A stretch of 37,403 nucleotides of DNA from Candidatus Lambdaproteobacteria bacterium RIFOXYD2_FULL_50_16. Its GTDB lineage: Bacteria > SAR324 > XYD2-FULL-50-16. Below the pieces are notes generated by a model that was given only the letters and a program-made list of their open reading frames with translations, was not told where the DNA came from and searched no databases. The translations under genes and the position numbers were made by a program. Shown here piece by piece: positions 764 through 33,585 of this stretch. Numbering within the stretch: position 1 is the stretch's first letter; every line of letters begins with the position of its first letter. The stretch spans positions 1 to 37,403 of the forward strand of contig MFNE01000014.1 in NCBI GenBank assembly GCA_001783695.1, in the 5' to 3' direction.

Positions 764-3697
764 CTAGGGCAAGGAAAATTCCACCGCATCTTGATCGTCG
801 GGCGCATCACCGGCGGCAAACCGAATCAAATAAAACCGATAGGCCTTTTCGGAAACAAAATCATAAACTCTGGTTTCTCCAGCACTCCAAGATTCTGCGG
901 AACGATGATCAACTTCCTGCCAATCCACGCCATCGACAGAACCGAACACCTTCCAGTTTCTTGGCATTTGTTCGGGACCACGACTTTGATCCCGGTAAAG
1001 ACCGGGGCCTAATTTATACCTGTTTTTACGCGATATTTCAGGTAGTTCAATGCGAATCCAAAAGGGTACGCCTTGTTCCAACTTGGCCTGGTGTATCTTC
1101 GTGATGGCCAACGGAGCTTGCCGAAACAAAACCTTTTTATACCATTCTTGAGGGTCTTGGGGCAGTCCCCAAATAGATTGATAAAACCCACGAGAGGAAT
1201 TTTGTTCCCGCGCCTGATCTGCTGGAATCTTCCAATTGACCTCTTTATTGAGGCTCAATTCATTAAAATTGATCATCAACGTTCGTCCATCATCGGTCAC
1301 GGGAATGGGCACGCGCTTGATCACGTTTTCTGGTTTTATGCCAATATGCTCAACCCGAAACTGACCCAATTTGTACCCCGTTCCCTCCAACCCAAATTTG
1401 ATCAACGGCAGGTTAAAGGTATAATACATTTGGCTGGCAGCTAGATTAAAATCGAGCGCAATTTCTCGGTCCAAATAATGACTCATCATCGGGGCACCGA
1501 TCAATAAAATCTTCCGGTATACACTCAAATCCTCCGAACGTAGACGGGCCCTAATAAAATCGAGTTCCTTTTTTTTCTCTATCGAGACATAAAGCACATT
1601 ACGCGCACCAATCAAGCCGTAGGTGGCCAGCAAAACCCCTAAGCCCAGGACCAAGAGATTTTTTCCTGCACCCCCTCCCAAAATGCTAGCCCACTGCCAT
1701 ATCAGCCAGTAATAAAGAAGGACCAACAAAGCCCCGTAGATCAGTGTAATACGGTAGGCCGTGGGTACGTCTTCTACTAATAGATAAGGCGCATTTACCA
1801 ACAGGACAATTCCCGCTAGGCCCAACACCAACTGCGTCCAAACGCGCCAATACTCCTTGGCTGGTCCCTGTACCAAGTAAACCAGCAACAATGCGAATGC
1901 CAATAACCCAGTGACCCCCAACACCCACAGGTGGACTGTTTTTTCCCACCCAATCAGGTGTAAGGGCCCGGCGAGGGTCAACTTCGAAAGCCGTTCAAAG
2001 GTAAGCCATTTAGCCTCCCAGTTGAACAGCAGGTTCATCGAATAATGCCCGGTCCGCTTGGTAAAGGCCCCGCCCCAGTAAACCGGACCCGCCCAGGTTA
2101 AAAAAGGACCGATTAGATACTTATAAACCACAAAATACAGGGGCGCCGAAAAACCGATGAAGGCCATATCTTGGGCCAAAATAATTCGGTTTTTCCGCCA
2201 GTTATTTAAAGGCGTAAACAAGATGCGCGCAGTAACGGGCAACAAAAAGGCAAAGGTATTGGCCGGATAGGTCATAAAGCTACAAAGCAAGAGGCCTTGC
2301 CCTGCCAGCGCCAGCGTTAGGTTCCCCGTAAGGTTCCAACCCCGGACGCGGTGCTGGTCCCAAACCCAATAGGCCAAGAGACCCAAGGTAAACGACAGGG
2401 TATTGGGAAAGTTGGTCACCCATAGGATATAGAGCTGAAAACCTGGCAAAAAAAACAGCGTCGCTCCAATGGCCACCGCAAGTTTGGCTTCTAGCTTTAC
2501 CCGTTGCCATAAAATACTAGCCAAAAGCAGCACGTTAAAGATGGTCACCATCGCGGCATAAAACCTCGCTACCGCCAGATCCGAAAGCTCTTGGATAAAA
2601 TAAAATTGAAGGCTTAGCACCAAGCCGTTAAGTAACCGACCCATTCCGGCCACGTCCCGCGCCTCTGGGTGCCCCATCCACAGGTCTAGCACATTGGTAG
2701 GTTCGTAGTCGTTGTGAATGCCAAAATCTAATAAAAATGCGGGCAAATAAACCAGCAACGCCACCAATGCGAATAGAGCGCTATAAAGATAGAACAACCG
2801 ATTTTCCGGCCTTATCCAACAAACTCGGTTCACCCCATCGGCTACTTTGGTAATCACCCACAAAAATTGTTTTTTTAACCGCCAAAAAATCACGACCCCT
2901 AGAGCCAGCCCCCAAAGACTCCCAAGGGTGGCCCAATAAAAAACCCAGCGCTGGTTTAGATTACTATTGTTTTCTAGGGCTTTTTTAGCGACTCCAGCGA
3001 TCTCTTGGGCGTCTAAGGAGCGCGACCAAACGGCCAATTCGCTGATTCGGACGGCTGCACCCGTTGCGGGGCTTTTACCTCTACTTAGCAGGATCTGTTG
3101 GGCTGGTTGCAAAACGCCGGGCAGAACCGACTTTTCGATGACCGCTCCATTGAAATAGACCGCCGCTATCTCCTTCCTGGCATCGGTAACCAGGGCAACG
3201 TGTACCGGCGAATCCGGGGGTTTTGGCAAGTTAAAACTAGCACGGCCTCCGATAGTAAAAATGGAGACATGTAGGCCACCGTCCTCTTTAACCCAAAGAG
3301 AGGCACGTGGGTAAGGGGCGGATATGGCCCCGTCAAAAAAAATATTTGCTAACCCAGATTCCCTGCCACCCGCGCCGAGATCCAATAACAGGGTATAGGT
3401 CAGTGCCTGCTGGGAGCCAGATTTTGCCCATCCAGGCAATTCGCCGAAATGCTCGACCCCTTCATTAAAAAAAAGGCCATTAGCCGTGAAGTCTTTTGCC
3501 GATTTTGAAATCCCTAATTCTTGGCCCGTTACCTGATCTTTCAGGCTCCCCAAGAGCGGGTAATGAACCAAAAGGCCGGTTTGGTTTAATTCGACGGGGT
3601 CCAAGCCAATCTTGAAAAAAAGCTTTTTCCCGGCAAAAAGAATCAAAAGGGAAAAAACCGCCAGGAGTAACAGGCTGTTTTTTGTGGATTTTTTCAT
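764..3697 (-). CDS. Family D membrane protein: LamG + GtrII-like glycosyltransferase core + discoidin-like tail
   Basis: A 977-residue protein from the ATG at 3697. An upstream TTG at 3751 is in frame, but the ATG places a Lys-rich n-region directly before the hydrophobic anchor (about residues 8-23). The LamG opening motif GLLVHYPLLG is at 41-50, and the domain ends near 245 with the typical ISELAVWSRSLD strand. A second membrane segment leads into a polytopic core (about 300-760). There the loop IHNDY (about 325) followed by GRLLN resembles the acidic first periplasmic loop of GtrII/GT-C transferases. The tail (about 880-977) contains WKVFGSVDGVDWQEV and looks like an F5/8 type C carbohydrate-binding fold. 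The lectin and tail domains are predicted to be periplasmic. Paralogue at 15787-18786. The donor is expected to be a polyprenyl-phosphate sugar (family knowledge); the sugar is unknown. No Shine-Dalgarno is visible. Confidence 0.8.
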   Translation of the reverse strand: MKKSTKNSLLLLAVFSLLILFAGKKLFFKIGLDPVELNQTGLLVHYPLLGSLKDQVTGQELGISKSAKDFTANGLFFNEGVEHFGELPGWAKSGSQQALTYTLLLDLGAGGRESGLANIFFDGAISAPYPRASLWVKEDGGLHVSIFTIGGRASFNLPKPPDSPVHVALVTDARKEIAAVYFNGAVIEKSVLPGVLQPAQQILLSRGKSPATGAAVRISELAVWSRSLDAQEIAGVAKKALENNSNLNQRWVFYWATLGSLWGLALGVVIFWRLKKQFLWVITKVADGVNRVCWIRPENRLFYLYSALFALVALLVYLPAFLLDFGIHNDYEPTNVLDLWMGHPEARDVAGMGRLLNGLVLSLQFYFIQELSDLAVARFYAAMVTIFNVLLLASILWQRVKLEAKLAVAIGATLFFLPGFQLYILWVTNFPNTLSFTLGLLAYWVWDQHRVRGWNLTGNLTLALAGQGLLLCSFMTYPANTFAFLLPVTARILFTPLNNWRKNRIILAQDMAFIGFSAPLYFVVYKYLIGPFLTWAGPVYWGGAFTKRTGHYSMNLLFNWEAKWLTFERLSKLTLAGPLHLIGWEKTVHLWVLGVTGLLAFALLLVYLVQGPAKEYWRVWTQLVLGLAGIVLLVNAPYLLVEDVPTAYRITLIYGALLVLLYYWLIWQWASILGGGAGKNLLVLGLGVLLATYGLIGARNVLYVSIEKKKELDFIRARLRSEDLSVYRKILLIGAPMMSHYLDREIALDFNLAASQMYYTFNLPLIKFGLEGTGYKLGQFRVEHIGIKPENVIKRVPIPVTDDGRTLMINFNELSLNKEVNWKIPADQAREQNSSRGFYQSIWGLPQDPQEWYKKVLFRQAPLAITKIHQAKLEQGVPFWIRIELPEISRKNRYKLGPGLYRDQSRGPEQMPRNWKVFGSVDGVDWQEVDHRSAESWSAGETRVYDFVSEKAYRFYLIRFAAGDAPDDQDAVEFSLP

Positions 3698-4140
3698 GTA
3701 CGCCGATTCAACCTTTCCCTTTTGACATCCAAAAAGACCCTTTTGCAACACTTACGGTTAACCGAGGGGCAGTTGGTTTTAAACCCCACCAAATTCTGCC
3801 CTTTCAATAAAGCTGTTTTTATCAAACAAGAGGTGTAGAGAATTTGATCAAACCCGACCCGCTTAGAATGCGCTAACCTCCTAGAAAATTCAAGACCCCC
3901 AAGGAACGCTAAAGAAACAACTGTCTGCCAAAGTTCTTGCCATTTTCTTCATGACAAACCGATGAACCTTCGACTACCCTACCGTATGCTTCTCTTGAAA
4001 GCATGAGCCTCTTGACCGAAAAAAGATTTTATTAATTTACTTTGGAAAACAGGGTGATATCTTTGGTTGGGGCTTAAGATTTTTCCCCCGCAGCGTTGAA
4101 ACCTTGGTTCCTGCCTGTTAACTTCCAGTTTTTTGCTTTT
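3698..4140. other. Divergent intergenic region between family D and family A genes
   Basis: These 443 bp separate two outward-facing genes and should hold both promoters. A possible + strand promoter has TTGACC at 4012-4017 and an AT-rich TAATTT at 4033-4038, with a short 15-base spacer, so it is weak. An inverted repeat ATGCTT/AAGCAT with a short loop lies near 3987-4003 and could be an operator. I see no small gene, RNA gene or mobile-element end here. Confidence 0.4.
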
Positions 4141-9159: not shown

Positions 9160-10023
9160 TCAATTCAAAAAGCGGTTAAAAAAACCCTGGTTTTGGTACA
9201 GCCTGAAGGCCCCGTAAAATAAAATAACCGCTATTAAATAAAGGGTACCCAAAATCACCCGGTAACGCAGATTCCACCGTTCTTGAAAATTCTGCTGATC
9301 CAGAAATATAAGCGCCGCTTCCTCCATTGACAGTTCTCGATCCCAAAAAGAAAAATTCCCCAAATTACCCTTAAACGAGGGTTCAAGGGAATCCCACCGG
9401 CCTAGTAAAAACTGATTCACCGCACCGGGATTTTCCATCTTGAAGGGCGCCTCTAAAAGTAATTTGCCGGAGACATAAACTCGGCTTCGGTTATTTTTGA
9501 AAGATACCGATGCCACCAGGTGCACCGGAAAATGTTGCAAGCTGGTCTCAAAGGGAAAATCCCGGGTCGCGCCTCCAACAGTATAGCGGATTCGCTGATT
9601 CATGCTGTTGATCTCAAGCGCTTGGATGGGTTGTTGCGGATTATCTCGATTGCCGCTCCAGAAAACCGGTTGATACCGATCTAACTTTGGCATTCTTACC
9701 CACAAAGAGACCGTCTGGTCCTGGTTTGGAGGGATTTTAAACGAATTTGCTTCCAGTTGTAAGAAATCCAACTTCTCGCCGCTTAGGCGAATTCCGCCGT
9801 TGTAAAAAGACCGGTCCCAGCGGTAACTTAAGGAAACGTTGTTTTCGCTGTAATCCTTGAGGTTGCCGTAGAGCGGAAAGAACAAAGCCAATCCTTGGGT
9901 AACAGAAGGGATACCCATAGGAGCGAAGTAGAGTGCCAAAGGCTTTGCCATAAAAGACAGCGCGATTGCCGCTAAAAGTATCAGTCCCCCGATTCGCCAG
10001 CGCCTCCTTTGGGTACCTTCCAT
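9160..10023 (-). CDS. Family C free-standing membrane-anchored LamG protein (copy 1)
   Basis: A 287-residue protein from the ATG at 10023. The frame stays open upstream into the neighbouring IS element, but the start at MEGTQ matches the length of its paralogue at 28496-29353 (285 aa). Layout: basic n-region and anchor (about 8-30), LamG opening GLALFFPLYGNLKDYSENN, then PVFWSGN, SRVYVSGKLL, FLLGR and NFSFWDRELS, in the classical Laminin_G_3 order. A second membrane segment lies near residues 255-280. It looks like the N-terminal half of the D and E proteins without the enzyme core, and probably displays a periplasmic lectin domain. The family B gene follows after one base. An IS inserted 41 bp upstream of the start, so the native promoter is probably displaced. 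Confidence 0.8.
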   Translation of the reverse strand: MEGTQRRRWRIGGLILLAAIALSFMAKPLALYFAPMGIPSVTQGLALFFPLYGNLKDYSENNVSLSYRWDRSFYNGGIRLSGEKLDFLQLEANSFKIPPNQDQTVSLWVRMPKLDRYQPVFWSGNRDNPQQPIQALEINSMNQRIRYTVGGATRDFPFETSLQHFPVHLVASVSFKNNRSRVYVSGKLLLEAPFKMENPGAVNQFLLGRWDSLEPSFKGNLGNFSFWDRELSMEEAALIFLDQQNFQERWNLRYRVILGTLYLIAVILFYGAFRLYQNQGFFNRFLN

Positions 10024-10064
10024 AAATCCATACTCGGTTTTAAAATCTCTACGCTTTGGTCCTA

Positions 10065-10118
10065 TGAGATGGTCCGGTGTGTTAGGACAACTTGAGACTG
10101 GCTTTAAGCTCTGATCCA
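10065..10118 (+). repeat. Left terminal inverted repeat region of IS-A
   Basis: This end begins TGAGATGGTCCGGTG and contains GGACAACTTG and GCTCTGATCC. It matches, inverted, the right end at 11293-11335 and the corresponding end of the deleted copy at 12397-12602. Differences from the deleted copy are few (for example GTCTCAAG versus GTCTTAAG). Confidence 0.75.
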
Positions 10119-10136
10119 GTTTTTCAATTCGAGGTC

Positions 10137-10967
10137 TCAAGCAGCCTCGATGATTCTTGGAAGTTCCCCGTAAACCTGATCGGGCATTCTGCCTCCGTGG
10201 GCCTGGTGAGGCCGTTCGGAGTTGTAGAAGTCAAACCAGGCTTTGAGGCCCTTCCTCAGGTCTGCGCCGCCATCAAAGGTGTGCAGGTACAGGTACTGGT
10301 ATTTCACAGTCCACCATTGCCGTTCAACCAGAATGTTGTCCTGGAAGCGGCCCCGACCGTCCATACTGATTGAAACACCAGCATCCTTCAGCACCCCGGT
10401 GAACTCAAGGCTGGTAAACTGAGAGCCCTGATCGGTGTTGAAGATCTCCGGGGTTCCATGCCGATTCAGGGCTTCTTTCAATGCCTCTAAGCAAAAATCC
10501 GCCTCCAGGCTGTTGGATACCCGCCAAGCCAGGACCTTGCGGCTATACCAATCCATGATCGTCACCAGATACATGAATCCACGGGCCATGGGCACGTAGG
10601 TGATGTCAGTGGCCCAGACCTGATTCGGCCTGTTGATTTTCAAGCCCCGCAGCAGATAGGGGTAAATCTTGTGCCCAGGCTGCGGCTTGCTTGTCCTGGG
10701 GCGGGGATAAACCGCCTCCAGGCCCATCCGCCGCATCAGGCTGCGAACTTTGTCTCGGCCAATGTCATGGCCCAATCGGCGAAGATGATCCATCATACTC
10801 CGGCTCCCGTAAAAGGGTGTTTTCAGGTACTGTTCGTCGATCAGCCGCATCAACTCCAGAACCGAAGCCCGAGAGGGCTTGGCTTGGTAATAACGCGTTG
10901 AGCGGCTGATGCCCAGCAGTTCACATTGCCGGGCCAGGCTTGGGGTGTTCTTACCCTGCTGGATCAT
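10137..10967 (-). CDS. IS3-family transposase OrfB (IS-A)
   Basis: A 276-residue transposase subunit. An N-terminal HTH_21-type region (SRSTRYY, then TPFYGSRSMMDHLRR) precedes an rve integrase core with the acidic triad visible: ATDITYV (first Asp), NTDQGSQFT (second Asp) and DNILVERQWW (Glu). It ends with the family-typical FYNSERPHQ. All key residues are present and the gene looks functional. In IS3 elements OrfB is usually made as an OrfAB fusion by ribosomal frameshifting; the upstream orfA ends 22 bases before this ATG. Minor oddity: the usual LWR after VER is QWW here. Confidence 0.93.
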   Translation of the reverse strand: MIQQGKNTPSLARQCELLGISRSTRYYQAKPSRASVLELMRLIDEQYLKTPFYGSRSMMDHLRRLGHDIGRDKVRSLMRRMGLEAVYPRPRTSKPQPGHKIYPYLLRGLKINRPNQVWATDITYVPMARGFMYLVTIMDWYSRKVLAWRVSNSLEADFCLEALKEALNRHGTPEIFNTDQGSQFTSLEFTGVLKDAGVSISMDGRGRFQDNILVERQWWTVKYQYLYLHTFDGGADLRKGLKAWFDFYNSERPHQAHGGRMPDQVYGELPRIIEAA

Positions 10968-10989
10968 TTTCTTGGCACGTCTTCCAGCC

Positions 10990-11376: not shown

Positions 11377-11415
11377 TATAGTGGACCCCAAAAACTGGAC
11401 AACAGGTTAAGATAG
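11377..11415 (+). repeat. IS left-end repeat shared with IS-C
   Basis: 39 bases from TATAGTGGACCCC through CTGGACAAC to GGTTAAGATAG are identical to 36622-36660 at 36 positions. Both copies are in the same orientation and each is followed by an orfA on the + strand. Confidence 0.85.
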
Positions 11416-11439
11416 AGCCTAACCAGAGGAAGGGGATTC

Positions 11440-12758: not shown

Positions 12759-12816
12759 ACCCTTGGCGCTATCTTAAAAAGCCCGAAAGGATGTCTTGAC
12801 GATGGGGTCCTCTTCA

Positions 12817-15786: not shown

Positions 15787-18786
15787 ATGTTTCAACTAAT
15801 TTCAAAACGTTTTGGGCGGGCCCGTTTCTTTTTTGCGCCCCTATTGCTGCTGGGAATTTTTCTCGCTGGCTGGATGTTGCCAAAGTACTTCAACGGAACC
15901 TGGATTCGCACGGCGGGTCAAATTCCTTCATCGGGCCTAGTTGGCTACCATTATTTGCAAAAGATCAACTCGAACCTGGAAGCCAAACTACTCCAAAAAA
16001 TCCGCTCCAAACTCTTTGCCCGCCGGGGCGCTAAAAAACAGGTTACCTGGCCTCTGGTCACCCAAAATGAGTGGGAATGGCTGGGGTGGCCCAAACAATC
16101 CCCAGCTGGCGAGGTTACCTACGCCTTTATTTTTGATCTAGACCCTGCTAGGAAAACCCCACCTCGCCAGGAAATCCTTCGCGACGAACCCATACCTTCG
16201 GATCAGCGGCTTTCTCCTCGCCTATTGGTTTGGGTCAAAAACGGAAATCATTTGGTCTCGGAGATCAACCTCCCTGGACAGGCTCCCATTACCCTGGACT
16301 TCCCCCTTTTAGAAACCGACGGTCAATTGGTCAGCTATTGGATTGATGCCCACCACAACCGTTACGCAATTTACCTAAACGGCAAAGAACGTTACCAGGC
16401 GAACCTGGGGAGCGCTCCGGTAACTTGGCCCGCGCCCGCCCACCTCCGATTGTCTACCCACGGGCCTAAAGGTGGGGTGCAGGTAAAAGAAATCGGCGTT
16501 TGGAATCGAAAATTAAACCCCGACGAGCTAGGTCGGCTGCGTTATTTTTATACCAAAGCGCGTTATGATGAAGCACTTTTTCGAACCTACTTTTGGGTTG
16601 CCCTGGGCCTGGGTTTAATTTTTGTACTGGTCCGGTTTTATCCAGGTAAGGGCGATTTAAGCTCAGACCAGGGTCCCTGGGGATTATCGTGGGCACATTT
16701 CAAAAAAGGGCCTTGGAGTTTAGCAAAAAAAGCATTTTTTACTTCTCAACTCTTTATTTTATCTCGCTGGACCCTTCCACTTTCGTTGCTTTCGGTCGCC
16801 TTATATCTTCCTGCCCTACTTTTGGATTTTGGGATACATAATGATTATTTGTTCGAGCAAGGTAAAGATGATCTCTTGATGGGTTATCCCGAAGCAACCT
16901 TTCTCGCTAAACGGGGGCGAATATTAAACGCCATCTTGTTAAGTACCCAATTTTCATTTGTCACCAAAGTTTCCGACTTAGCCATCGCTCGCGCTATCGC
17001 CGTAGCGACCTCATTGTTAGTTGCTTGGTTGATCAGTTGGTTTCTTTTTCGCAAGGTCAAGCTTTCGGCTCCGGTCTCGGCGGCAATGGGGTTTTTGATC
17101 ATTTTATTGCCAAGTGTACAACTATACGTTTTATGGGTAACCAACTACGCGAACCTCGTCAGTTTGTTGTTTAGTATCCTTGCCTATTTGCTATGGGATA
17201 GCGGCGTTGGCCAAAAAAAAGGGCGCTGGCCAAAATATGGTTTGGGCTTTTTTTTCCTGCTTGTTAGTTTTTTTACCTACCCGCCTAATAGTTTTTTTTT
17301 CCTGGTGCTAGCTATCGCTAAATTCCTTTTCGAACAGGCGGCGCTGAGGAAAACCAAGGTGGTGCGGCTAACGCTCGATGTTATTTTTCAGGTGGCTGGC
17401 ATAGGTAGCTACTATTTGCTCCAAAAGTTCATAATCCCCCCTATTTTGGTTGCCCTGTCTTGGGCCGGAGAAGATGTATTTGGGAAGACCGGTGCGGTGA
17501 TGTATGCTTTTGATCCCCAATTTTCTTTGGGGGCCAAACTCAACATCATCCAACAGGTCAGCGAAGTCGCTTGGGGCCTACATTGGGCGGTATTGCCAAC
17601 CGAGAATGATTGGTCTGTACATCTAACTCTTTTGATTTTCCTGGGCCTGTTTGGCCTCTTAGCGATCATAAACTTTGGCCGCCAAGACCTAGCCAAAAAA
17701 TTACCCGCTTTTTTACTGAGCCTAGTGGGCGTAGTTGGAACAATACTGCTGGTCAACGCCCCTTATATTATGAGAGAAGAGGCCCCCTTAAGCTACCGAA
17801 TTTCATTGCCCTATACGGCGATCCTCGTTTTGGTACTGCTTTGGGGCTTTTTTTCGTTGGAAAAAATTTTGGTCCGTCAACCGGCCAAGTACGCCGCCCG
17901 ATTCGGAATCACCGCCTTTATGCTCTCCGTATTTGTTATTGCGGGAATCAACATCACCAGGGTCAGCGTAGAAAAACATTTTGAATATGGAAGCCTCAAA
18001 GCCAGTATGGGTGAAGCAAATATTAACCAAATTCAACTAGTTCATGCGATCCTTGCGCCCAACTGGTCTGGCTTTACGGGAAAAATGTCGCGGGATTTTG
18101 CGTTAGGCTGTTTTCAAACGCACAACATTAGCTGCCTTGAGTTGCTCAAACGCGTTTACCAGGAAGCTGGGGGTTGGAAAAACATTGTTTATCACGTTAT
18201 TTCTCCCACGCCAGATCATTATATTAAGCACCAGCCTCATTATATTAACGAGCTTGGGGCAGATCATTTTTATGATGCCAATCACTACCGGATCGACAAG
18301 GAATATGATTATGGGGTTACCCTAAAGGAAATCCAGACACAAGCTTACTTGCGCGAATGGTATAAGGTCTGGGGCTATAATGAGCCGGAGGACCCGGTTT
18401 CTTGGCAGGTAGCCAGAGAGGCTAAAGCGGCGGACATCATTGGAGTTCGTTGGATGGTGGACACCGAAAAACGCTCGGTAATCGCCTTCGATTCCCATTC
18501 TGCCCCTTACCAAATAAAACCCTTTTCGGTGATATTTCGCTCTCAAAACAATGAGGTAGCAACGATAAAATGGCGATTAGTTGGTAGTTATGATCAGGTT
18601 TCTTGGACCGAACTTGGATCAGGAGCGTTGCTACCACTCAAGCGGGACCAACCAACGAACATCCCTTTTTGGCCCCCTGGCGACTACCCCCATTACCGGT
18701 TTTTCGCCACATTCCTAGAACCGGTGCCCACCGATGGGAAAGTTATTTTGGGCACCATCCACGACTATAAACCCTTCTCCTTCTAG
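15787..18786 (+). CDS. Family D membrane protein: LamG + GtrII-like core + C-terminal beta domain (copy 2)
   Basis: A 999-residue paralogue of the protein at 764-3697. An anchor lies at about 15-33 and a LamG-like region at about 45-255; its opening motif is altered to GLVGYHYLQK, and it ends with KEIGVWNRKLNPDEL. A membrane-spanning core then carries DFGIHNDY (about residue 350), GRILNAILLS and LYVLWVTNYANLVS, the last equivalent to LYILWVTNFPNTLS in copy 1. The C-terminal 120 residues (WRLVGSYDQVSWTEL) resemble a divergent discoidin-like domain. The LamG part contains an insertion (LEAKLLQKIRSKLFARRG) absent from copy 1. A TTGACA promoter candidate lies just upstream. The likely role is periplasmic sugar transfer from a polyprenyl carrier (inference from GtrII-like topology). 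Confidence 0.8.
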   Translation: MFQLISKRFGRARFFFAPLLLLGIFLAGWMLPKYFNGTWIRTAGQIPSSGLVGYHYLQKINSNLEAKLLQKIRSKLFARRGAKKQVTWPLVTQNEWEWLGWPKQSPAGEVTYAFIFDLDPARKTPPRQEILRDEPIPSDQRLSPRLLVWVKNGNHLVSEINLPGQAPITLDFPLLETDGQLVSYWIDAHHNRYAIYLNGKERYQANLGSAPVTWPAPAHLRLSTHGPKGGVQVKEIGVWNRKLNPDELGRLRYFYTKARYDEALFRTYFWVALGLGLIFVLVRFYPGKGDLSSDQGPWGLSWAHFKKGPWSLAKKAFFTSQLFILSRWTLPLSLLSVALYLPALLLDFGIHNDYLFEQGKDDLLMGYPEATFLAKRGRILNAILLSTQFSFVTKVSDLAIARAIAVATSLLVAWLISWFLFRKVKLSAPVSAAMGFLIILLPSVQLYVLWVTNYANLVSLLFSILAYLLWDSGVGQKKGRWPKYGLGFFFLLVSFFTYPPNSFFFLVLAIAKFLFEQAALRKTKVVRLTLDVIFQVAGIGSYYLLQKFIIPPILVALSWAGEDVFGKTGAVMYAFDPQFSLGAKLNIIQQVSEVAWGLHWAVLPTENDWSVHLTLLIFLGLFGLLAIINFGRQDLAKKLPAFLLSLVGVVGTILLVNAPYIMREEAPLSYRISLPYTAILVLVLLWGFFSLEKILVRQPAKYAARFGITAFMLSVFVIAGINITRVSVEKHFEYGSLKASMGEANINQIQLVHAILAPNWSGFTGKMSRDFALGCFQTHNISCLELLKRVYQEAGGWKNIVYHVISPTPDHYIKHQPHYINELGADHFYDANHYRIDKEYDYGVTLKEIQTQAYLREWYKVWGYNEPEDPVSWQVAREAKAADIIGVRWMVDTEKRSVIAFDSHSAPYQIKPFSVIFRSQNNEVATIKWRLVGSYDQVSWTELGSGALLPLKRDQPTNIPFWPPGDYPHYRFFATFLEPVPTDGKVILGTIHDYKPFSF

Positions 18787-18827: not shown

Positions 18828-20732
18828 CTAGCGAAGGGGTTCTTGGACTCTAAAGGGAGGCTGGGTGTTGCGCGGTAAAACCAAGCGGTCTCGGTAAAAA
18901 CCCAGAATTCCAAGGACCGCAAGGTTGATTGCGCCAATTAATACAAGGGCATTCACCAATAGGGACCAATCTGGTTCATACCAACCCTGAGCGCTTAAAA
19001 AAAAGACTCCCCCGCCCAATACCACCGAGCCCATCGCGACCAAACGCCCTAAAAGGAGACTGGCCGTTAATGGGAGCGCAGCAAAGCTTTTTAACGCCAA
19101 GCCCACCTGTTCCCTCAATAACCGACCACTAAACATAGAAAAGGCCGTATCTTTTGCTCCATACAACGTAGCGGGATCGTAAAAAAACGATCCCTGTACC
19201 AATCCCCCCCAGCGAACCAAGGGGCGCAATTGGGGCAATTGTTCATTTTGGTTTAGGATTTCTTGTACGGCGGACCGGGTCAGAAGCTTGAAATCACCCC
19301 GATCAAGCAGCATCTCGACTCCAGAGAGTTTACCGAGCAGTTCGCCCCCTAATCGGCCAGCAGTCTGCCTTAATTGATTCCCTTGTTCCGGGTAGAGACA
19401 ATAGGCGCTAAGCACTTCTAGTTCGGGCTGGCTACGCCATTTGGCCAAGAGGTGGGCAATGACTTCGGGCGAGGGTTCCAGATCGGCATCGGTATAAACC
19501 ACCAAATCACCTTTAGCTTGGGAAAACCCGGCAAGCAAACTTTCAGTTACCCCAACAAAATAGCCCATATCAATCAGCACCATGTCCTGATTAGCTTGTG
19601 CCTGACGGCGCAGGGCTAAAGCACTTTGATCTGAAGAGTGATCGTTTACAAAAACCAGTTCGTAACTAACCAAGTGCTGGGCTGCGATTTCCCGTTGCAG
19701 CACCGCACGGAGGGAATCAATCAGGGATCCCAACCTTTTTTCCCGGTTTCGCAAAGAAACGACTACCGAAAGGCTAGGTGGCGCGGCCCAGGTCTCATCT
19801 TGTTCGGGTAGGCCGGTTGGGCTTACGGGACCCATTGCTACATCAGGAAAAATCTTGGCCGCCGTCCAAACCAATAACCTTCCAGCATCACCATTATTGA
19901 TTAAATAGAGCGCCCCTCGAACGAAAAGACCTAGCGCCCCTAATCGAATCAACCAGAGATAAAACAGACCCAAACCTTCTTGGTGGACTTGATCGGTCAA
20001 GATTTCTTGAAAGGTTTGCTCCATTTCCGCTTGGGTCAAGACCCGTTCGTAGATTGCTACGTTACTGATAATACCTTCGAATTTGTTATAAGGTTCCGGG
20101 CTTTGCCCAAGGTAAAAATGATTCGAATTGGTCCCCGGCCCCGGCGCAAAACTGCGTTGATAGGCTCGTTTCCCGTTAACGTAAATTTCACTGACACCGG
20201 TATCATAGTTTACTGTGGCCGCCACATAATACCGGCCCCCCAGCGGCTGGACATCGGCCCTGTATTGCACGCGGTGGCTGGTCAGATGCACAATCTCTTG
20301 GGTGGCTGGGATCAACCATACCGCCTGGCGAGGGTCCCCTTCGAATTCGATATTCCCGTCCCAAGCCAAGGGCAATAGCAGCGAACTTGCATCGGGATTC
20401 GCCGAAAAAATCAAGGTTTGCTGGTTTTTGTGGTACGCTTGCGCAAACCAATTGGGGACCTCCAAATAGTTTTTACGACTCCCATTTAAACGTAAACCCA
20501 GGGACTCGTAATTTTGTTTTTGATGATAGATCAACCCTAAAGGTGCCGAGCCCTGGGTGGCCTTAACCTGATTTAACAGGGGATAATAGGCCACCAAATC
20601 CTGCGTGACGGAAAGCAAACCAGGGGCAAGCAATCTAGGCACCACCTGTTTAGCTGTAAACCAGAGCAATCCGGCGGCAAGGAAAACCAATAGGGCCCAT
20701 AGTCTGGAGCGCCTGGACTTGGTAAGACTCAT
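18828..20732 (-). CDS. LamG-GT2 fusion: lectin-tethered GtrB-like polyprenyl-phosphate glycosyltransferase
   Basis: A 634-residue protein. Signal anchor at about 12-30; LamG domain at about 45-245 (DLVAYYPLLNQV, PLAWDGN, SEIYVNGKRAYQ, FYLGQ, NVAIYERVLTQAEM); membrane segment at about 260-285. A family 2 glycosyltransferase domain starts near 322 (LSVVVSLRNRE) with VNDHSSDQS (about 361) and YTDADLEPSPE (DAD at about 413). The C-terminus has FSMFSGRLLRE followed by two hydrophobic hairpins (about 545-615), the layout of GtrB/DPM1-type enzymes that load a sugar on polyprenyl phosphate at the cytoplasmic face. Fusion to an N-terminal LamG, which must be on the opposite membrane face, is unusual and is the same arm seen on the D, E and C proteins. 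It converges on the D gene, 41 bp apart. Confidence 0.85.
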   Translation of the reverse strand: MSLTKSRRSRLWALLVFLAAGLLWFTAKQVVPRLLAPGLLSVTQDLVAYYPLLNQVKATQGSAPLGLIYHQKQNYESLGLRLNGSRKNYLEVPNWFAQAYHKNQQTLIFSANPDASSLLLPLAWDGNIEFEGDPRQAVWLIPATQEIVHLTSHRVQYRADVQPLGGRYYVAATVNYDTGVSEIYVNGKRAYQRSFAPGPGTNSNHFYLGQSPEPYNKFEGIISNVAIYERVLTQAEMEQTFQEILTDQVHQEGLGLFYLWLIRLGALGLFVRGALYLINNGDAGRLLVWTAAKIFPDVAMGPVSPTGLPEQDETWAAPPSLSVVVSLRNREKRLGSLIDSLRAVLQREIAAQHLVSYELVFVNDHSSDQSALALRRQAQANQDMVLIDMGYFVGVTESLLAGFSQAKGDLVVYTDADLEPSPEVIAHLLAKWRSQPELEVLSAYCLYPEQGNQLRQTAGRLGGELLGKLSGVEMLLDRGDFKLLTRSAVQEILNQNEQLPQLRPLVRWGGLVQGSFFYDPATLYGAKDTAFSMFSGRLLREQVGLALKSFAALPLTASLLLGRLVAMGSVVLGGGVFFLSAQGWYEPDWSLLVNALVLIGAINLAVLGILGFYRDRLVLPRNTQPPFRVQEPLR

Positions 20733-20864: not shown

Positions 20865-21387
20865 TTAGCATAACCCTTTTGATTTTGCTTGGAAATAGGC
20901 CGCAATGCCTACCGCTTCGTCGAACCGATTATCGATTATCTGCGCTTCGAACTCCTCGGCGCTCCATACCTCCAGTTCGATGCCCGATTCGGGTTCCGCC
21001 ACGGGTACCGCTTGGTCGCAAAAAAAAAGGGTCACCTTTTTAGAGAGCTGACTAGAATAAAAAAAGCCGACCCAAAAAAACCGCTTCGTTGGCGCGGTAG
21101 CCGGTTTCTTCTTCTAATTCACGGAGTACCGCAACTTCAGGGATCTCCCCTGGGTCCACCCCTCCGGCTGGCATTTCCAGGGTGTAACTGCCCATGGCGG
21201 GGCGAAACTGTCGAACCAATAAAAAGCGTCCCTCCCGGTCGCGAGTCAAGGCGGCAACAGTGTCTTCACCGTCTATGGCGTAAAAATCCCGACCATCTTT
21301 ATAGGGGATTTTCTTTAAAGAAAACCGTGGAGTTGAAAATACCGCTTCTTTTTGGTCATATAAAAAACCACCGTCCCTAGATTGCAT
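20865..21387 (-). pseudogene. Frameshifted Nudix hydrolase
   Basis: It starts at the ATG at 21387 ([17 protein letters not shown]) and carries a full Nudix box (GGVDPGE then RELEEETGY), plus RQFRPAMG and LEMPAGG as in the intact copy at 53-598. The frame breaks at an A7 run (21059-21065, minus strand T7). Removing one base restores [20 protein letters not shown] and continues to GIAAYFQAKSKGLC with a TAA at 20865, for about 173 residues in total, which matches the intact paralogue. A homopolymer +1 change is either a real mutation or a sequencing error. The ATG lies two bases after the TAG of the transketolase remnant, which suggests former co-transcription. Confidence 0.82.
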
Positions 21388-21389
21388 TA

Positions 21390-21950
21390 CTATCCTCTGG
21401 CGGCTGCTAAGATTTGGGAAAGCCCCCAAGCCGCGTTGTTCGTGGAGTTCATCTCTTCGAGCGATTTCAAATTTATAGTTCTCCGCCAATCCCAAGGGTT
21501 TGATCCGCACCGAAAGCCCCCGTTGGTTGGCAAAGTACAAAAGCAACCAATCGAGCCCACCCTTGCCAACAAAGGCCTCTTCAATGGACACTACCCGATG
21601 GTACTGGGTCAACAGTTCGACCAACGCTTCGGGGGCAAAGGTTTTCAGTCCAAAAAAGTCCACCACACCCACCGATTGTCCTTCGCTCGCGAGTTGTTCA
21701 GCCGCTCGCAACGCCACCTGCACGGGGTACTCGATTCCAATCAAACAGCAGGCCGAACCCATTTTTTAGTTCCGCAAAACCTTGATTTAAAGGCACCTGA
21801 TCCTCATAAAGCCCCGGTTGAGGCTTGGAATCGAAGCGGAAATTTTTTTTAACGGTCCGCGCGTGGTCTAACAGGGCGCCTGCGGTGTTCCAATCGGCAG
21901 GACAAAAGACCGCTACGTTAGGGAGAGGCTTTCGGTCATGCTTAATCTTA
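21390..21950 (-). pseudogene. Decayed transketolase, C-terminal part
   Basis: The recognisable transketolase C-terminal domain reads [48 protein letters not shown] and [21 protein letters not shown], and in the repaired frame ends [11 protein letters not shown] with TAG at 21390. Upstream, in another frame, LPNVAVFCPADWNTAGALL is the end of the pyrimidine-binding domain. Two homopolymer shifts separate the pieces (T6 at 21762-21767 and C5 at 21423-21427 on the + strand), and the N-terminal two thirds are missing. Weak remnants may extend to about 22050. Transketolase-like enzymes in glycan clusters act in sugar precursor synthesis; here the gene is dead or badly sequenced. Reading straight through the C5 run fuses it artificially to the Nudix gene. 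Confidence 0.8.
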
Positions 21951-22218
21951 AGGGTAGGGGTGCTAAGATGCTGCCAGAAAACGCGCCAAAGCCCGCAAAT
22001 CGTATAGGAGAATAGACTTTTCTACCGGTTGCGTAAAGGGAAATGACCACCCTTAGCCTTAGAACCAGAAAATTAAACCCTGATTTTTCAGAACTCCGAA
22101 GAACCCTTGGCGACCACTTGGGGTTTTCCACCAACTAGAGAATGGCCTATGTCGGTTGACGGAGTCAGCGGGTTACGGCTCTACTTGGTGTATTGTTTAT
22201 TCAACCAACGGTGCATTG

Positions 22219-23202
22219 ATGCTGCTACGTTTACGAAAGGCCACTCCTTATGGGTTGAAGCTGATAATCATTGGCACCATTTTGTATTTTTTATACCAAA
22301 AAGATGTTCTTAACCTTTCTTCACTTTCGGTCTTTGTCGAACATCCGGTCGTTGGAATCGCCGCCGTGTTATTGGTGATCGTGATCAGCAACAGCATGAT
22401 GGCGCTGCGCTTAAAGATCTTATTGGTCGCGCACCAAATAGGTATTCCCTTATTAAAACTGACCAACATTCATTGGATCGGCCTATTTTTTTCTACCGTC
22501 TTGCCCGGCTCGGTTACGGGCGAAAGTGTAAAAGCGATTTATTTGATCCGTTCCGACAAAACCTACTCCAAAGCCACCATTTTAACGGTCATCATGGTTG
22601 ATAAAATAATGGCTTTGGTGGCATTGGTGCTGCTCGCCTTCGCGGGTATTCTGACCAAATGGGACCAGGTGGGGCAGTCTGCGAGCCTCCGGTATGTAAG
22701 CATCGTGGTCATAGGCACCGTGATTTTTATGATCCTGGGTGCCTTGGCTTGGGCCTTGCCCCTTTCTTCGACTAAACAAACGTTGCGCGACAAAACGGAA
22801 CCGCTAAAGCTTTTTGTGTTAGCTTGGCGCGTCTTTGATGCTCTTTCGACCTATAAAAAAAGGCCCGGCAGACTTGCGCTGGCGGTAGGTATTTCATTAT
22901 TTAATCAGTTGATCTTTATTGCCCTGATTATAATGTTTTCCTTTTATTTAACCGGCGAAAGTGGCGCTTGGAGCCATTTTTTGTTTGCCGTACCTTTAGG
23001 AGAGATTTCGACCGTAATCCCCTTTGCCCCAGCCGGAATCGGGGTCGGGCATGCGGCATACGAGTTTTTGTTTTCCATCAGCGGCCTTTCGAGCGGCGCC
23101 AACGTTTTCACGGCGATAACGGTTGTGCGCTTGACCGTGGGCATTTTAGGCGGCATCCCGTACCTTTTATACCGAAGCCAACAACCTGCGCCTACCGTTT
23201 AA
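22219..23202 (+). CDS. UPF0104 / LPG-synthase-TM flippase-like membrane protein (copy 1)
   Basis: A 327-residue polytopic protein. I chose the ATG at 22219 because the segment from KATPYGLKLIIIG aligns with the start of the paralogue at 29981-30982; an in-frame ATG at 22156 adds 21 residues with no counterpart. Typical features are GLFFSTVLPGSVTGESVKAIY, MVDKIMALVALV and, near the C-terminus, PLGEISTVIPFAPAGIGVGHA, the conserved P-x-G-I-G signature of the lysylphosphatidylglycerol synthetase TM (MprF flippase-like) superfamily. Members move lipids or lipid-linked compounds. In this cluster a polyprenyl-phosphate sugar is a reasonable cargo, but that is inference. No Shine-Dalgarno is visible. 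It is divergent from the decayed transketolase genes. Confidence 0.85.
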   Translation: MLLRLRKATPYGLKLIIIGTILYFLYQKDVLNLSSLSVFVEHPVVGIAAVLLVIVISNSMMALRLKILLVAHQIGIPLLKLTNIHWIGLFFSTVLPGSVTGESVKAIYLIRSDKTYSKATILTVIMVDKIMALVALVLLAFAGILTKWDQVGQSASLRYVSIVVIGTVIFMILGALAWALPLSSTKQTLRDKTEPLKLFVLAWRVFDALSTYKKRPGRLALAVGISLFNQLIFIALIIMFSFYLTGESGAWSHFLFAVPLGEISTVIPFAPAGIGVGHAAYEFLFSISGLSSGANVFTAITVVRLTVGILGGIPYLLYRSQQPAPTV

Positions 23203-23374
23203 GGATAACCTGACTCGCCAACCGGTAGGTTTACCTTGTCAATCCCGCCTACGCTGCGTAGAATCGGGGATAACCAATACTAGGCGTGTCGCGGTTACCT
23301 TGCGCTTTGCTGGCCTCCTGGCGCCCGGAAAAATTGCCCCTTGAGCCCGCTTGATAACTAACCAAAAAATTTCG

Positions 23375-28495: not shown

Positions 28496-29353
28496 CTAAT
28501 CAACCTCGAACAATTTGCTCCAGGGTTTAAACCCCAAAAGTATAAAAAGCCCCGCGTAACCTAAGCAAAAAGCGCAAAAATAGGTAAGTCCCAAAATAAA
28601 TCGCTCTCTGGTGCGCTTTATTTCTAGTTGCTCGTTCTGCTGGAGATACAAAAGCCCCATTTCCGATTCACTTAATGGGCGATCCCAAATACTCAATGAA
28701 CTCACAATTCCCACCAACTGACTTTCGGGATTAAAACCCCGGCCAATAAACAACTGATTGGAGGAATCCACATCTTGGGGGTCAAAGGGAATTTCTTTTT
28801 CTAAATTCCCGTTTACATAAACACGAGCAATCCCCTTTTTGTAGGAAACGGTTAAGGCAGCAAATACCCGTTTTTCGAGCCCCCAGTGAAAAGCCGTATC
28901 CTTATAAGGCCCTTTAAAGGTGGCGCTACGCAACAGCGAAGCAGCTGAATTAACCCAAAGCGTCAACGTCGGATGGGTGGGATTTGTTTCGGTACCATCC
29001 CAGACCAGTGGTCGCATTTGGTCCAAGTAGAGGGGCTTGACCCAAAGAGCAACGGTCCGCTCCGTTTTGCCTTTAGCAACCTCTTTCCAGTTGGAAATTT
29101 CCAGATAATTATTTGGATCTCCCGATAATTGCAGGCCCAGGTCCAAATAGTCTTGGCGGTGCGAGTAAAGCAGATGTTGATCGTTTTCGCTGTAATCGCT
29201 CAAATTGTTATATAACGGGAAAAAACCAACCAACCCTTTAGCAAAAGGAACCTGGAAACTACCGGGGAACTGGTGAGAAATAAAGGAAGCATTAGAGGCA
29301 AGAAGCAACGCCAACAACAACATGCTCAAGGCATAAATGCGTTTACTGCTCAT
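28496..29353 (-). CDS. Family C free-standing membrane-anchored LamG protein (copy 2)
   Basis: A 285-residue protein: anchor at about 8-24, LamG opening GLVGFFPLYNNLSDYSEND, ALWVKPLYLDQMRPLVWDG, ARVYVNGNLEKE, LFIGRG, SLSIWDRPLSESEM, then a membrane segment (about 252-275). It is a very clean Laminin_G_3 fold and the best example in the window. Paralogue at 9160-10023 with the same length and the same DYSEN block. An AGGG 12 bases upstream of the ATG is a weak ribosome-binding site. The lectin ligand is unknown; a periplasmic or outer glycan is likely from topology. Confidence 0.83.
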   Translation of the reverse strand: MSSKRIYALSMLLLALLLASNASFISHQFPGSFQVPFAKGLVGFFPLYNNLSDYSENDQHLLYSHRQDYLDLGLQLSGDPNNYLEISNWKEVAKGKTERTVALWVKPLYLDQMRPLVWDGTETNPTHPTLTLWVNSAASLLRSATFKGPYKDTAFHWGLEKRVFAALTVSYKKGIARVYVNGNLEKEIPFDPQDVDSSNQLFIGRGFNPESQLVGIVSSLSIWDRPLSESEMGLLYLQQNEQLEIKRTRERFILGLTYFCAFCLGYAGLFILLGFKPWSKLFEVD

Positions 29354-29980: not shown

Positions 29981-30982
29981 CTATTCGGTTTCTCTAGGGT
30001 TCAAGTGTCGTTGCTTTTTGTAAAATAGATAGGGCAGCCCACCCAAAACACCGGTCCCCAAACGAATGATGGTGAAAACGGTAAACACATCGGCTCCCCC
30101 TTTTAACCCACCTTGCAAAAACAAATAGTCATAAGCGGCATGGCCTACACCAATCCCACCGGGGGCCAAGGGAATTATCGTCGAAAGCTCACCCAAAGGA
30201 GCCGCAAAGAGAATATGAACCCAATCTGCTTGAGGGTCACAAAGCTGCCGCGCCACCAGCCAAATGATCAGCACAAAAATCAACTGGGTACTAACGGACA
30301 ATACCAGCGCCAAAGCCACTCGAAAGGGATGTTTCTTAAAGGGTGCTAGACCGTTGGAAAACTTTAGTAGCCATTGGGAATAGGGCAGCTCGTACACTCG
30401 GCAGATCAACCAACCTTTTAAATGGGTATTGGGCAAGGTCCAAAATAGGGCGATAGCCAGGGCCCCGGAAAACAAGATCACCACAAACCCGCCCACAACA
30501 CTCAACGCAGGATTGGACCAAATCAGCGGCCAATGCAGACCAATGGCAACTAGGCTGACCAACACAATGGCAATTAACGCAGTCAGTTTGTCGAACATTA
30601 CAACCGTTATACAGTCCACCCGCGAAACCTGCCCCCCGGTTTCCTTTATCAGGTAATAGGCCTTGACGCCTTCGCCGCTAACGGTTCCCGGAAGTAGGGT
30701 GGAAAAAAAAAAGCCGATCCATTGTATCGCATAAAGCCGCACGATCCCAAACGATATACCATGGGCCCGCAATAAAATTTGCCAGCGTAGGGCCATGAGC
30801 CCATTGCAAAGGACCACAACCAAAAAAACGGACGCCCAAAAAATTAGCGGTTGTTGATATACCATGGCCGTCGAGGCCAAGTCCAGTTTACCGCTGTTCC
30901 ACAAAAAATAAAGTATCAAGCCAACGACACTGGACTTCAGCAACAGCAAAAGGGCGGTTTTTTGATAAGAACTTTTTTTCAT
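29981..30982 (-). CDS. UPF0104 / LPG-synthase-TM flippase-like membrane protein (copy 2)
   Basis: A 333-residue polytopic protein paralogous to 22219-23202: KSSVVGLILYFLW, GFFFSTLLPGTVSGEGVKAY, MFDKLTALIAIV and PLGELSTIIPLAPGGIGVGH, the conserved superfamily signature. The start codon overlaps the stop of the upstream family E gene as ATGA (30979-30982), so translation is probably coupled to it and needs no Shine-Dalgarno of its own. This direct link of a flippase-like protein to a LamG-GtrII-like protein is the strongest context evidence for a joint function. The cargo is inferred, not shown. Confidence 0.87.
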   Translation of the reverse strand: MKKSSYQKTALLLLLKSSVVGLILYFLWNSGKLDLASTAMVYQQPLIFWASVFLVVVLCNGLMALRWQILLRAHGISFGIVRLYAIQWIGFFFSTLLPGTVSGEGVKAYYLIKETGGQVSRVDCITVVMFDKLTALIAIVLVSLVAIGLHWPLIWSNPALSVVGGFVVILFSGALAIALFWTLPNTHLKGWLICRVYELPYSQWLLKFSNGLAPFKKHPFRVALALVLSVSTQLIFVLIIWLVARQLCDPQADWVHILFAAPLGELSTIIPLAPGGIGVGHAAYDYLFLQGGLKGGADVFTVFTIIRLGTGVLGGLPYLFYKKQRHLNPRETE

Positions 30983-33585
30983 GGTAATTCCGGCCAGGGG
31001 ATGTCCGTTATCTGCTTCCCTGAGTTTCCGTTGAATAGATAATTAAAATCAATTACCACCATGTCACGACTTTTATATACGGGCTCGCCTAACTCGCTGT
31101 GGGTGACGAAAATAGTTTGGTCCCCGGTCTCGACAGGGCAATACCTTTGTTCCCGTTGGCAATCGCTGATGCTAAAGGTTTCGTGGCGAGCGACTCCTAA
31201 AAGAGCAAGGCGAATGAAGGCAGATACGTTGGCCTGGATATCGAGCGACTTTCGGTTAAATTCGTCGGTAACGCTGGGTAGACCGTTGAAGCCAACTTTA
31301 TCGTTTGCCGCTCTAATGATATGAATTCGTTTGATCGGCTTGCCCTGATATTGGGCAAGGATACTCCGGGCATAAGCCAATTCTACACTGGTGTTCCAAG
31401 TGTTAAGACTGGTGGTCCGATTAGCACTCATGGCGCCATATAAAGCCAATGCCGCCGCCCCCAGATAAAGCGTTATTTTCTGTGCTTTGGGCTTTAATCC
31501 CACTAGGCCCGCTAATTCTACCCCCCGCACCCAGAGGACAAACAAAACCAACAGGGCCAAGACCGAAAGGGGCATTAAAAATCGGTAAAGCAAATGCCCG
31601 GTGTGGCTTAACACCCAAGGAAGCATGGAAACAAACAAAAAGGCGGCCGCCGGAAAAACCCTGGAATATAAATTGACCACCAAAGCACCGCGTTTTTCAG
31701 ATGCCCATCGAACCAACGAAAATATCACCGCTGCCAAGCAGATTACCCAAGCCAACCGATTGCCCCAATATTCGCTGACATAGACGTTCCAATAGTTAAA
31801 GGCCCAAGGCATTGCGGCTTGAAAAAAGGCGTCTAGTTTCACCCAAAACTGGCTAAAATTGAGGCTAACCTGATAATTTTCCGGTAACATTGAGGGCTGA
31901 TAGTCCATCAACGGGTGAATCACCTTTTTGACGACCAGCAAAAAACCAAACGACGCGGCCCCCAATAAAGCCATATCTCGAATCGCCAAATGCAACCCGG
32001 TCCTCCAAAAAAAACGTCCCGAAAAGGGAGCAAAGGCCAGGGCTAAAAAAGAAGGGGCCAAAAAAAGGTAACTTAGGGCGGGATAAGTAAGGGTCGCTAA
32101 AAGCAGCAGCAATAAGGAGCTCAGGTATCGTCCGAACAACTGGTAATACGTTTTGCTCGGCCACAAAAGAGCCCCGTATGACATTAGACCTAGTAATGGG
32201 GCTAGGGCATTGGGCAGGTTGGTCATAAAAATCGTGTTTTGCGCCCCTGGTAGGCAATATATTGCCAAAGCCATCAACCCTGCCACCCCCAGGGGTAACC
32301 CAACCGCCACCGCCAAAACCGCAAGTAACGTTGCCCCGGCGGCCATCAAGATCAGCACCAAAAAGCGGAAAAAAACCAAGTCTTGCAACACAAACACCCG
32401 CGTGGCAACCTGACATTCCAAAAAAGCGGAAATCGGCCTTCCGACCAAAAAGAGCCATTTGTGTTGCCGGTCAAAAGCGCAGCTTGCCTTGTTGGCCAAG
32501 TCGGTGCCATATTCGGTAAAATAGCGCGTTTGGTCGTGGTGAGCCGTGGGGAGGTTGAAATTATCGGCGTAGATAAAATAGAGTGCCCCTAAAAGCAACC
32601 CGAACAAACCTAAGGTTTGGGCTAGGCTAATGAACTTCACCGCTCCTATAATTTGCGGTTTAGGGGCCTTCAGAAAAACACCATGGAGCGCCTTGGTTGG
32701 AGGTTTAAGGATGGCCCGCAAGCTACGCAGCATGGGCACACTCAACCAAAGACCGACCAAGGCCAATCCTAAGGCCACCAACCGATACAACAGGGTTTTA
32801 CGCCCTGCCTCATTTGCATAAAGGGCCTGTTGTGTTTGGTCGTGCTGGTAAAGCTGGTTAACCTCCTGAGGGCTCAAGGCCCGATTCCATATCGTCCAAC
32901 CACCCAAAATTCCATTAAACCTACGTTCTGGTTCCAGGCCTCGTCCTAGGTAAAGGGTGTCGGTCGTTTCCAAACCAGGCGCTTCGGTTGTGCCTTGATA
33001 GGCCAATTGGCCATCAATATAAAACCGAACCATTTTTTCCCGGTACGACAGGATAGAAGTCAAAAAAACCGGGCCCTCTGGGAGCTTGGTTTCCAAGTCG
33101 AAACTGTCGATCCGGGTTAAGCTGTGGTGGATAAGCTTGCCTTTATTTTTGATCCATAGCGAATGAATCGGACGACCAGGACTCTTTAAATCTCCATCCC
33201 AAAAAACCGGCAACTCGCTGGCGTATTGCAGTTGCTCGAATTGAGGCCAGACCCAAAGCGCCATGGTTTGCTCTTGAGCATCTCTATTTTGGCGCTTAAA
33301 CCAATCATCTACCTGTAAAAAGTCTTTTTCGCCTCCGCCCAAATAAAGCCCACCTTTCGCCTGTTCGCGCCGAGCGTAGAAAATAAGTTGCGGTGCTTCT
33401 GAATGGCTGGCCCCAAGGCCTTGTGCCAACGGATAGTAGGCGGTCAAACCTTGTTCAAAAGGGAGCGGGGTAGGGTCGCTTAAATGACGGTGCCCCCATA
33501 CTTCGGCCTGTAAGTATAGTACAATAGCCGTCAACCCTAATAAAAAGGCACCAACAAATCGCAACCATAGACCCAGAATTTTCAT
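30979..33585 (-). CDS. Family E membrane protein: LamG + GtrII-like glycosyltransferase core
   Basis: An 868-residue protein. Anchor at about 8-26; LamG at about 45-255 with GLTAYYPLAQGLG, MALWVWPQFEQL, PVFWDGD, VRFYIDGQLAYQ, LYLGRG and GWTIWNRALSPQEV; two membrane segments; then a polytopic core. There HHDQTRYF (about residue 350) followed by a W-x(5)-GRPIS block matches the acidic loop and arginine of GtrII-type (Glucos_trans_II) transferases. A soluble C-terminal region (about 740-868) includes NGLPSVTDEFNRKS and a Cys pair (DCQREQRYC), and ends without a discoidin domain. GtrII enzymes move a sugar from a polyprenyl carrier to O-antigen in the periplasm (family knowledge). A truncated paralogue is at 35708-36621. 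Translationally coupled to the flippase-like gene. Confidence 0.83.
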   Translation of the reverse strand: MKILGLWLRFVGAFLLGLTAIVLYLQAEVWGHRHLSDPTPLPFEQGLTAYYPLAQGLGASHSEAPQLIFYARREQAKGGLYLGGGEKDFLQVDDWFKRQNRDAQEQTMALWVWPQFEQLQYASELPVFWDGDLKSPGRPIHSLWIKNKGKLIHHSLTRIDSFDLETKLPEGPVFLTSILSYREKMVRFYIDGQLAYQGTTEAPGLETTDTLYLGRGLEPERRFNGILGGWTIWNRALSPQEVNQLYQHDQTQQALYANEAGRKTLLYRLVALGLALVGLWLSVPMLRSLRAILKPPTKALHGVFLKAPKPQIIGAVKFISLAQTLGLFGLLLGALYFIYADNFNLPTAHHDQTRYFTEYGTDLANKASCAFDRQHKWLFLVGRPISAFLECQVATRVFVLQDLVFFRFLVLILMAAGATLLAVLAVAVGLPLGVAGLMALAIYCLPGAQNTIFMTNLPNALAPLLGLMSYGALLWPSKTYYQLFGRYLSSLLLLLLATLTYPALSYLFLAPSFLALAFAPFSGRFFWRTGLHLAIRDMALLGAASFGFLLVVKKVIHPLMDYQPSMLPENYQVSLNFSQFWVKLDAFFQAAMPWAFNYWNVYVSEYWGNRLAWVICLAAVIFSLVRWASEKRGALVVNLYSRVFPAAAFLFVSMLPWVLSHTGHLLYRFLMPLSVLALLVLFVLWVRGVELAGLVGLKPKAQKITLYLGAAALALYGAMSANRTTSLNTWNTSVELAYARSILAQYQGKPIKRIHIIRAANDKVGFNGLPSVTDEFNRKSLDIQANVSAFIRLALLGVARHETFSISDCQREQRYCPVETGDQTIFVTHSELGEPVYKSRDMVVIDFNYLFNGNSGKQITDIPWPELP

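Follow-up and report, generated by a model that had tools for sequence, protein, structure and literature searches.

Three-component glycosylation is divided among a charging enzyme, a flippase and a GT-C (PMC8035078). A review of these systems foresaw separate proteins for acceptor recognition (PMC8035078), and on the GT-C enzymes EmbC, AftD and GT136 ORF12, the acceptor is bound by carbohydrate-binding modules (PMC11127046). In Ppm1 (Rv2051c) of M. tuberculosis, an Lnt domain and a polyprenol-phosphate-mannose synthase form one chain, which is split in relatives (PMC3460810). In GtrB (sll0501 of Synechocystis; structures 5EKP and 5EKE), the donor/metal site contains D94 and D96, D157 is the putative acid of catalysis, and the acceptor phosphate is proposed to be held by R122 and R200; activity is abolished by mutations at R122, R125, K132, A136, Y140, R200, L212, A216 or R290 (PMC4728340). 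Q98 of GtrB serves as a metal ligand (PMC5526996). It is not settled by what means the charging enzyme in the cytoplasm, the flippase and the outer GT-C locate one another and the correct acceptor.

Here we analyzed a window of 37,403 nucleotides (the whole stretch of DNA under study, contig MFNE01000014.1), in which a LamG domain and a GtrB-like GT2 are fused in one polypeptide. The open reading frame (ORF) begins with ATG, contains no internal stops, and encodes, in this order, a transmembrane segment (TM), LamG, a second TM, a GT-A glycosyltransferase, and a TM hairpin (Table 1). Both domains passed the Pfam cut-offs, which is the curated one for Laminin_G_3 (Laminin_G_3, residues 163-236, E 9e-12; Glycos_transf_2, residues 322-492, E 5e-16). 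Hydrophobic stretches were found at residues 9-27, 253-271, 543-582, and 591-609. The AlphaFold2 model (mean pLDDT 71; the beta sandwich and the GT-A core mostly 75-93, the acceptor region and linkers low) shows helices at 4-34 and 234-279, the sandwich at approximately 64-230, the GT-A fold at 320-490, and C-terminal helices at 550-581 and 590-617. The LamG half is modelled with a jelly-roll fold, for which Foldseek retrieved concanavalin-A-like lectin domains and, from a viral structure library, LamG jelly-roll proteins; for the glycosyltransferase (GT) half, it retrieved ArnC/GtrB. Among solved structures, residues 320-628 were closest to GtrB of Synechocystis (5EKE/5EKP, E 4e-23), followed by ArnC and DPMS. 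Positive charge precedes the first hydrophobic stretch, and charges and hydropathy fit a topology with the N-terminus inside, LamG outside, and GT2 inside. The two halves are thus predicted to be on opposite sides of the membrane. The preliminary description of this DNA, made from its letters, had proposed this single-chain architecture and topology, the motifs VNDHSSDQS and DAD (residues 415-417), and a C-terminal hydrophobic hairpin, and all of these were borne out, the topology by prediction.

Table 1. Features of the window, with positions counted from its first nucleotide
Feature	Position	Strand	Details and basis
LamG-GtrB fusion gene	18828..20732	(-)	634 aa; ORF calling, Pfam, structure-database match, paralogue
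TM1 / signal anchor, residues 9-27	20652..20708	(-)	hydropathy; model helix 4-34
LamG (concanavalin-A-like) domain, residues ~36-250, predicted periplasmic	19983..20627	(-)	Pfam, AlphaFold2, Foldseek
TM2, residues 253-271, chain back to the cytoplasm (predicted)	19920..19976	(-)	hydropathy; model helix 234-279
GT-A (GT2) domain and juxtamembrane/acceptor region, residues 316-540	19113..19787	(-)	Pfam, structure match, AlphaFold2
C-terminal TM hairpin, helices 550-581 and 590-617	18882..19085	(-)	hydropathy, AlphaFold2
DAD motif (GtrB D94/D96), kept	19482..19490	(-)	alignment
Cys445 replacing GtrB R122 (acceptor phosphate)	19398..19400	(-)	alignment
Gly463 replacing GtrB Y140	19344..19346	(-)	alignment
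Thr522-Leu523 at the GtrB R200 (acceptor phosphate) site, T or L by alignment	19164..19169	(-)	alignment
NUDIX remnant, two frames, between tktC remnant and fusion gene	20871..21357	(-)	
Transketolase C-terminal-subunit (tktC) remnant, two frames, N-terminal part missing; upstream neighbour	21394..22000	(-)	
TM-LamG-TM fused to polytopic GT-C-like protein	764..3751	(-)	Pfam, hydropathy, profile
Stand-alone TM-LamG-TM protein abutting polytopic gene	9160..10140	(-)	Pfam, profile
Divergent TM-LamG-TM fused to polytopic GT-C-like protein	15787..18786	(+)	hydropathy, profile
Stand-alone TM-LamG-TM protein	28496..29353	(-)	Pfam, profile
TM-LamG-TM fused to polytopic GT-C-like protein	30979..33585	(-)	Pfam, hydropathy, profile

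Homology to GtrB extends across the GT-A domain, the juxtamembrane region, and the C-terminal TM pair, and, judged by alignment and structure match, the GT half is, in both fold and descent, a member of the GtrB/ArnC group. The window protein shares DAD and D157 with GtrB; it differs by the additional N-terminal TM-LamG-TM and by lacking Q98, R122, R125, Y140, and R200. ArnC (Und-P 4-deoxy-4-formamido-L-arabinose transferase), the top Foldseek match, has the same fold and belongs to the same family, but it has no periplasmic domain and resembles the GT half less in sequence than GtrB does. As in EmbC, AftD, and GT136 ORF12, an outer-side domain of glycan-binding type is attached to an enzyme of a lipid-linked-sugar pathway; in those proteins it is carried by a GT-C, whereas here it is carried by a cytoplasmic charging enzyme. 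Like Ppm1, LamG-GtrB combines a polyprenol-phosphate-sugar synthase in one chain with another envelope domain, which is an Lnt acyltransferase in Ppm1 and a lectin-like domain here.

Contig C33 of the source genome (3.14 Mb in 54 contigs) carries a second LamG-GtrB gene (L033:11382-13349), whose 655-aa product is 44% identical to the window protein end to end. The two copies joined each other in the tree of the GT2 halves (support 100/100) and in that of the LamG halves (100/99). Since both halves are sisters, one fusion occurred and was followed by duplication. Apart from these two copies, no LamG-GtrB was detected in 52 genomes of the phylum or in 288 sampled relatives, and strong matches in the other genomes covered the GT2 half only. 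The same was true of plasmid and phage records. Peptide-pattern scans of 85,000 species genomes also detected no fusion, which is weak evidence, as few patterns were used and those of the second scan came from the LamG half only. The literature searched contained no LamG-glycosyltransferase fusion, nor any polyprenyl-phosphate charging enzyme bearing LamG or another lectin. The joining had been called a rare topology; this was overstated, since in Ppm1 a charging enzyme is likewise fused to another envelope domain.

Next to its GtrB-like fold, the active-site residues of the window copy were compared by alignment (GtrB numbering). D43, D94, D96, D157, and R290 are kept and K132 is R. In contrast to GtrB, Q98 is replaced by E, D99 by P, R122 by C, R125 by P, Y140 by G, and R200 by T or L, depending on the alignment; these assignments rest on alignment of a region with low confidence in the AlphaFold2 model. 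Q98, R122, Y140, and R200 are invariant in all 17 other aligned sequences (the C33 copy, sll0501, the Solidesulfovibrio protein described below, eight sequences from genome loci, and six from viral contigs). The window copy departs from 20 of 46 columns that are conserved among the others, and the C33 copy from 6 of 51. In agreement with the residue losses, the NCBIfam model PgfS scored the window copy at 73 bits versus 214 for the C33 copy. The latter keeps D94, D96, Q98, R122, R125, K132, Y140, D157, and R200 together with a DADLQD motif. It differs at A136, A216, and R290, and so does its Solidesulfovibrio relative, so the residues essential in GtrB are not all universal. Judged by these residues, the window copy does not pass as an active GtrB, and the C33 copy passes as a GtrB-type enzyme by the nine that it keeps. 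Because the lipid-phosphate site appears to be gone, the window copy can hardly charge a lipid, and it probably no longer does so. The charging step that had been assigned to the window protein is therefore not supported for this copy. The idea can be transferred to the paralogue, whose alignment makes it best read as the working form of LamG-GtrB.

Of the stand-alone proteins related to the fused GT half that we found, the closest is encoded by plasmid pDMC1 of Solidesulfovibrio magneticus; it shares 61% identity with the C33 copy and 38% with the window copy. With this protein as the outgroup, 98 changes in the GT half were unique to the window copy and 23 to the C33 copy (p 9e-12). The GT half has thus changed approximately four times faster in the window copy than in its paralogue, and the LamG half much less so. 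Window-only to C33-only changes were 44:6 in the acceptor/juxtamembrane part, 30:5 in the TM part, and 24:12 in the donor part; for LamG, four outgroup modules gave 33:17, 19:11, 26:15, and 17:14. Between the copies, identity is 55% in the donor half and 33% in the acceptor half, and pairwise dN/dS, with synonymous change near saturation, was 0.17 for LamG, 0.25 for the donor part, and 0.41 for the acceptor part. dN/dS is below 1 throughout and the window ORF is intact, showing that the window copy is not a simple dead gene. Together, rates and dN/dS indicate that the window protein has been under selection, LamG most, and that its acceptor site relaxed or changed.

On contig C33, 12 bp separate the stop codon of LamG-GtrB, a GtrB/CsbB-like enzyme, from the next gene, which is YfhO-like (Pfam YfhO, E 6e-9). 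By this match, a GT-C partner is encoded together with the charging enzyme, as in the CsbB / YfhO / GtcA systems. Unlike those systems, the C33 locus bears LamG both on its charging enzyme and on a YfhO-like protein, and it has no adjacent GtrA/GtcA. The YfhO-like gene next to LamG-GtrB overlaps a stand-alone LamG gene. GtrA was not found at this locus, and in the genome it is encoded only on contigs C8 and C41. Flippase-like LPG_synthase_TM / TIGR00374 proteins are present in the window and on C49, and several of their genes lie beside LamG genes (window 22156-23202 and 29981-30982; L034:2938-3942); they are candidate lipid-sugar flippases. Further along C33 lie an isomerase-like gene, which inspection suggests is GmhA-like, and a gene for a LamG fusion protein that shares 31% identity with the YfhO-like protein. 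Plasmid pDMC1 (L144:7189-9020) carries adjacent GT2 and GtrB genes whose products are 57% and 61% identical to those of two C33-locus genes (L033:2249-3073 and 11382-13349), which suggests that a glycan cassette may have been shared or transferred.

A profile search for the TM-LamG-TM hairpin matched 23 times in the source genome; matches elsewhere in the phylum were few and came mostly from a second genus of the same family (G002). The hairpins examined were located at the N-terminus of polytopic proteins or encoded as stand-alone proteins abutting or overlapping a polytopic gene on the same strand (contigs C31, C53, C10, C35, C46, C7, and C33). A few stand alone without such a neighbour, for example on C49 and at window position 28496, and two are attached to GtrB. 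Thus, the hairpin chiefly accompanies polytopic proteins, and its attachment to GtrB is the exception. LamG is not peculiar to the charging enzyme, and in this respect too the preliminary description was overstated. Most polytopic partners had no Pfam or NCBIfam match. Two match YfhO; for the others, size, topology, and context suggest a GT-C identity. The AlphaFold2 model of one LamG-GT-C protein (five rows) was unusable (pLDDT 39). The window also encodes three paralogous polytopic proteins of approximately 740-754 aa with 36-43% identity (4096-6360, 13354-15579, and 23351-25564), whose C-terminal part resembles F5/8 type C (discoidin) domains. Another two polytopic paralogues (6357-9158 and 25561-28401; 42% identity) had no Pfam family match and consist of an N-terminal TM, a region of periplasmic size, and many TM segments.

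We consider the following history the probable one. A TM-LamG-TM hairpin, in this genome normally a companion of polytopic GT-C-like proteins, became attached in a single event to the N-terminus of a GtrB-type enzyme, and the fused gene was then duplicated. The C33 paralogue would charge undecaprenyl phosphate with a sugar for use by the YfhO-like GT-C of the downstream gene, and its periplasmic LamG would dock it to this GT-C or to the glycan acceptor, so that charging would take place where the product is needed. The window copy, with its fold, DAD, and LamG kept and its lipid-phosphate site apparently lost, would survive as an intact, noncharging LamG-bearing membrane protein. It may persist for its LamG or as a subunit that contributes no activity to a GtrB-type tetramer, or it may be disappearing.

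The surroundings of the window copy raise the question of plain decay. In contrast to the intact transketolase pair upstream of the C33 copy, tktC and NUDIX are frameshifted remnants in the window. An ORF finder reads them (20871-22000) as one chimeric 236-aa ORF at 21052-21762. An IS3-type transposase gene with a degraded second copy in several frames (10137-12737), an IS3-like ORF at the window end (37055-37402), and a broken LamG-GT-C fragment (35708-36603) were also found. This fragment is split into two overlapping ORFs, of which the upstream one shares 37% identity with the LamG-GT-C protein at 30979-33585 over the C-terminal part of that protein. Because of these remnants, the segment looks like a partly decayed, IS-rich duplicate of a C33-like locus. 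Most genes of the window and of L033 have no SD-like motif upstream of the predicted start, so ribosome-binding sites are uninformative as a sign of decay. The fusion gene could accordingly be on its way to a pseudogene with neither domain functional now, and the somewhat long LamG branch of the window copy in the tree is in line with this. However, 634 codons have remained free of stops after deep divergence, and LamG has changed only mildly faster than in the paralogue, with the low dN/dS given above. We therefore regard plain decay as rather unlikely.

A second alternative is an active, neofunctionalized GT2 that kept its donor site and rebuilt its acceptor site for another acceptor. The intact ORF, dN/dS below 1, and the better conservation of the donor half are what this would predict; however, donor-side motifs were changed too (Q98E, D99P, and SRNFG to GYFVG), and the new residues occur in no related sequence, with almost half of the conserved columns affected. 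This makes such a new activity improbable. Even more doubtful is an active polyprenyl-phosphate glycosyltransferase whose periplasmic LamG ties sugar loading to acceptor recognition, as first proposed for the window protein. Its architecture and predicted topology are correct and D94, D96, and D157 are kept, but R122, R200, Y140, and Q98 are lost, single GtrB mutants at the first three of these positions are inactive, and the acceptor part has changed at an accelerated rate. Equally speculative is the idea that the window protein is a catalytically dead subunit in mixed tetramers with the active C33 enzyme, in which periplasmic binding of a glycan or partner by LamG would gate the loading of Und-P with sugar across the membrane. 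Misassembly or a chance joining of two genes, favored by nothing beyond the restriction of the fusion to this genome among those sampled, is in practice refuted by the full-length paralogue, since two contigs share the architecture at so low an identity and both halves are sisters in trees.

We thus return to a single fusion followed by duplication, with a working C33 enzyme and a noncharging window copy that still bears LamG. By analogy with the systems above, LamG would most likely serve in the periplasm to dock enzymes of lipid-sugar pathways, either onto one another or onto a glycan; the concanavalin-A-like fold also serves protein contacts, and glycan binding by LamG is putative. One periplasmic module carried by the charging enzyme and by GT-C-like proteins of the same loci would be a natural handle on the question of how the partners of such pathways find each other. 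The pair of an intact and an eroded LamG-GtrB offers a ready comparison for the role of LamG apart from catalysis. The hairpin module itself, nearly confined to two genera of one family, is perhaps more interesting than the fusion.
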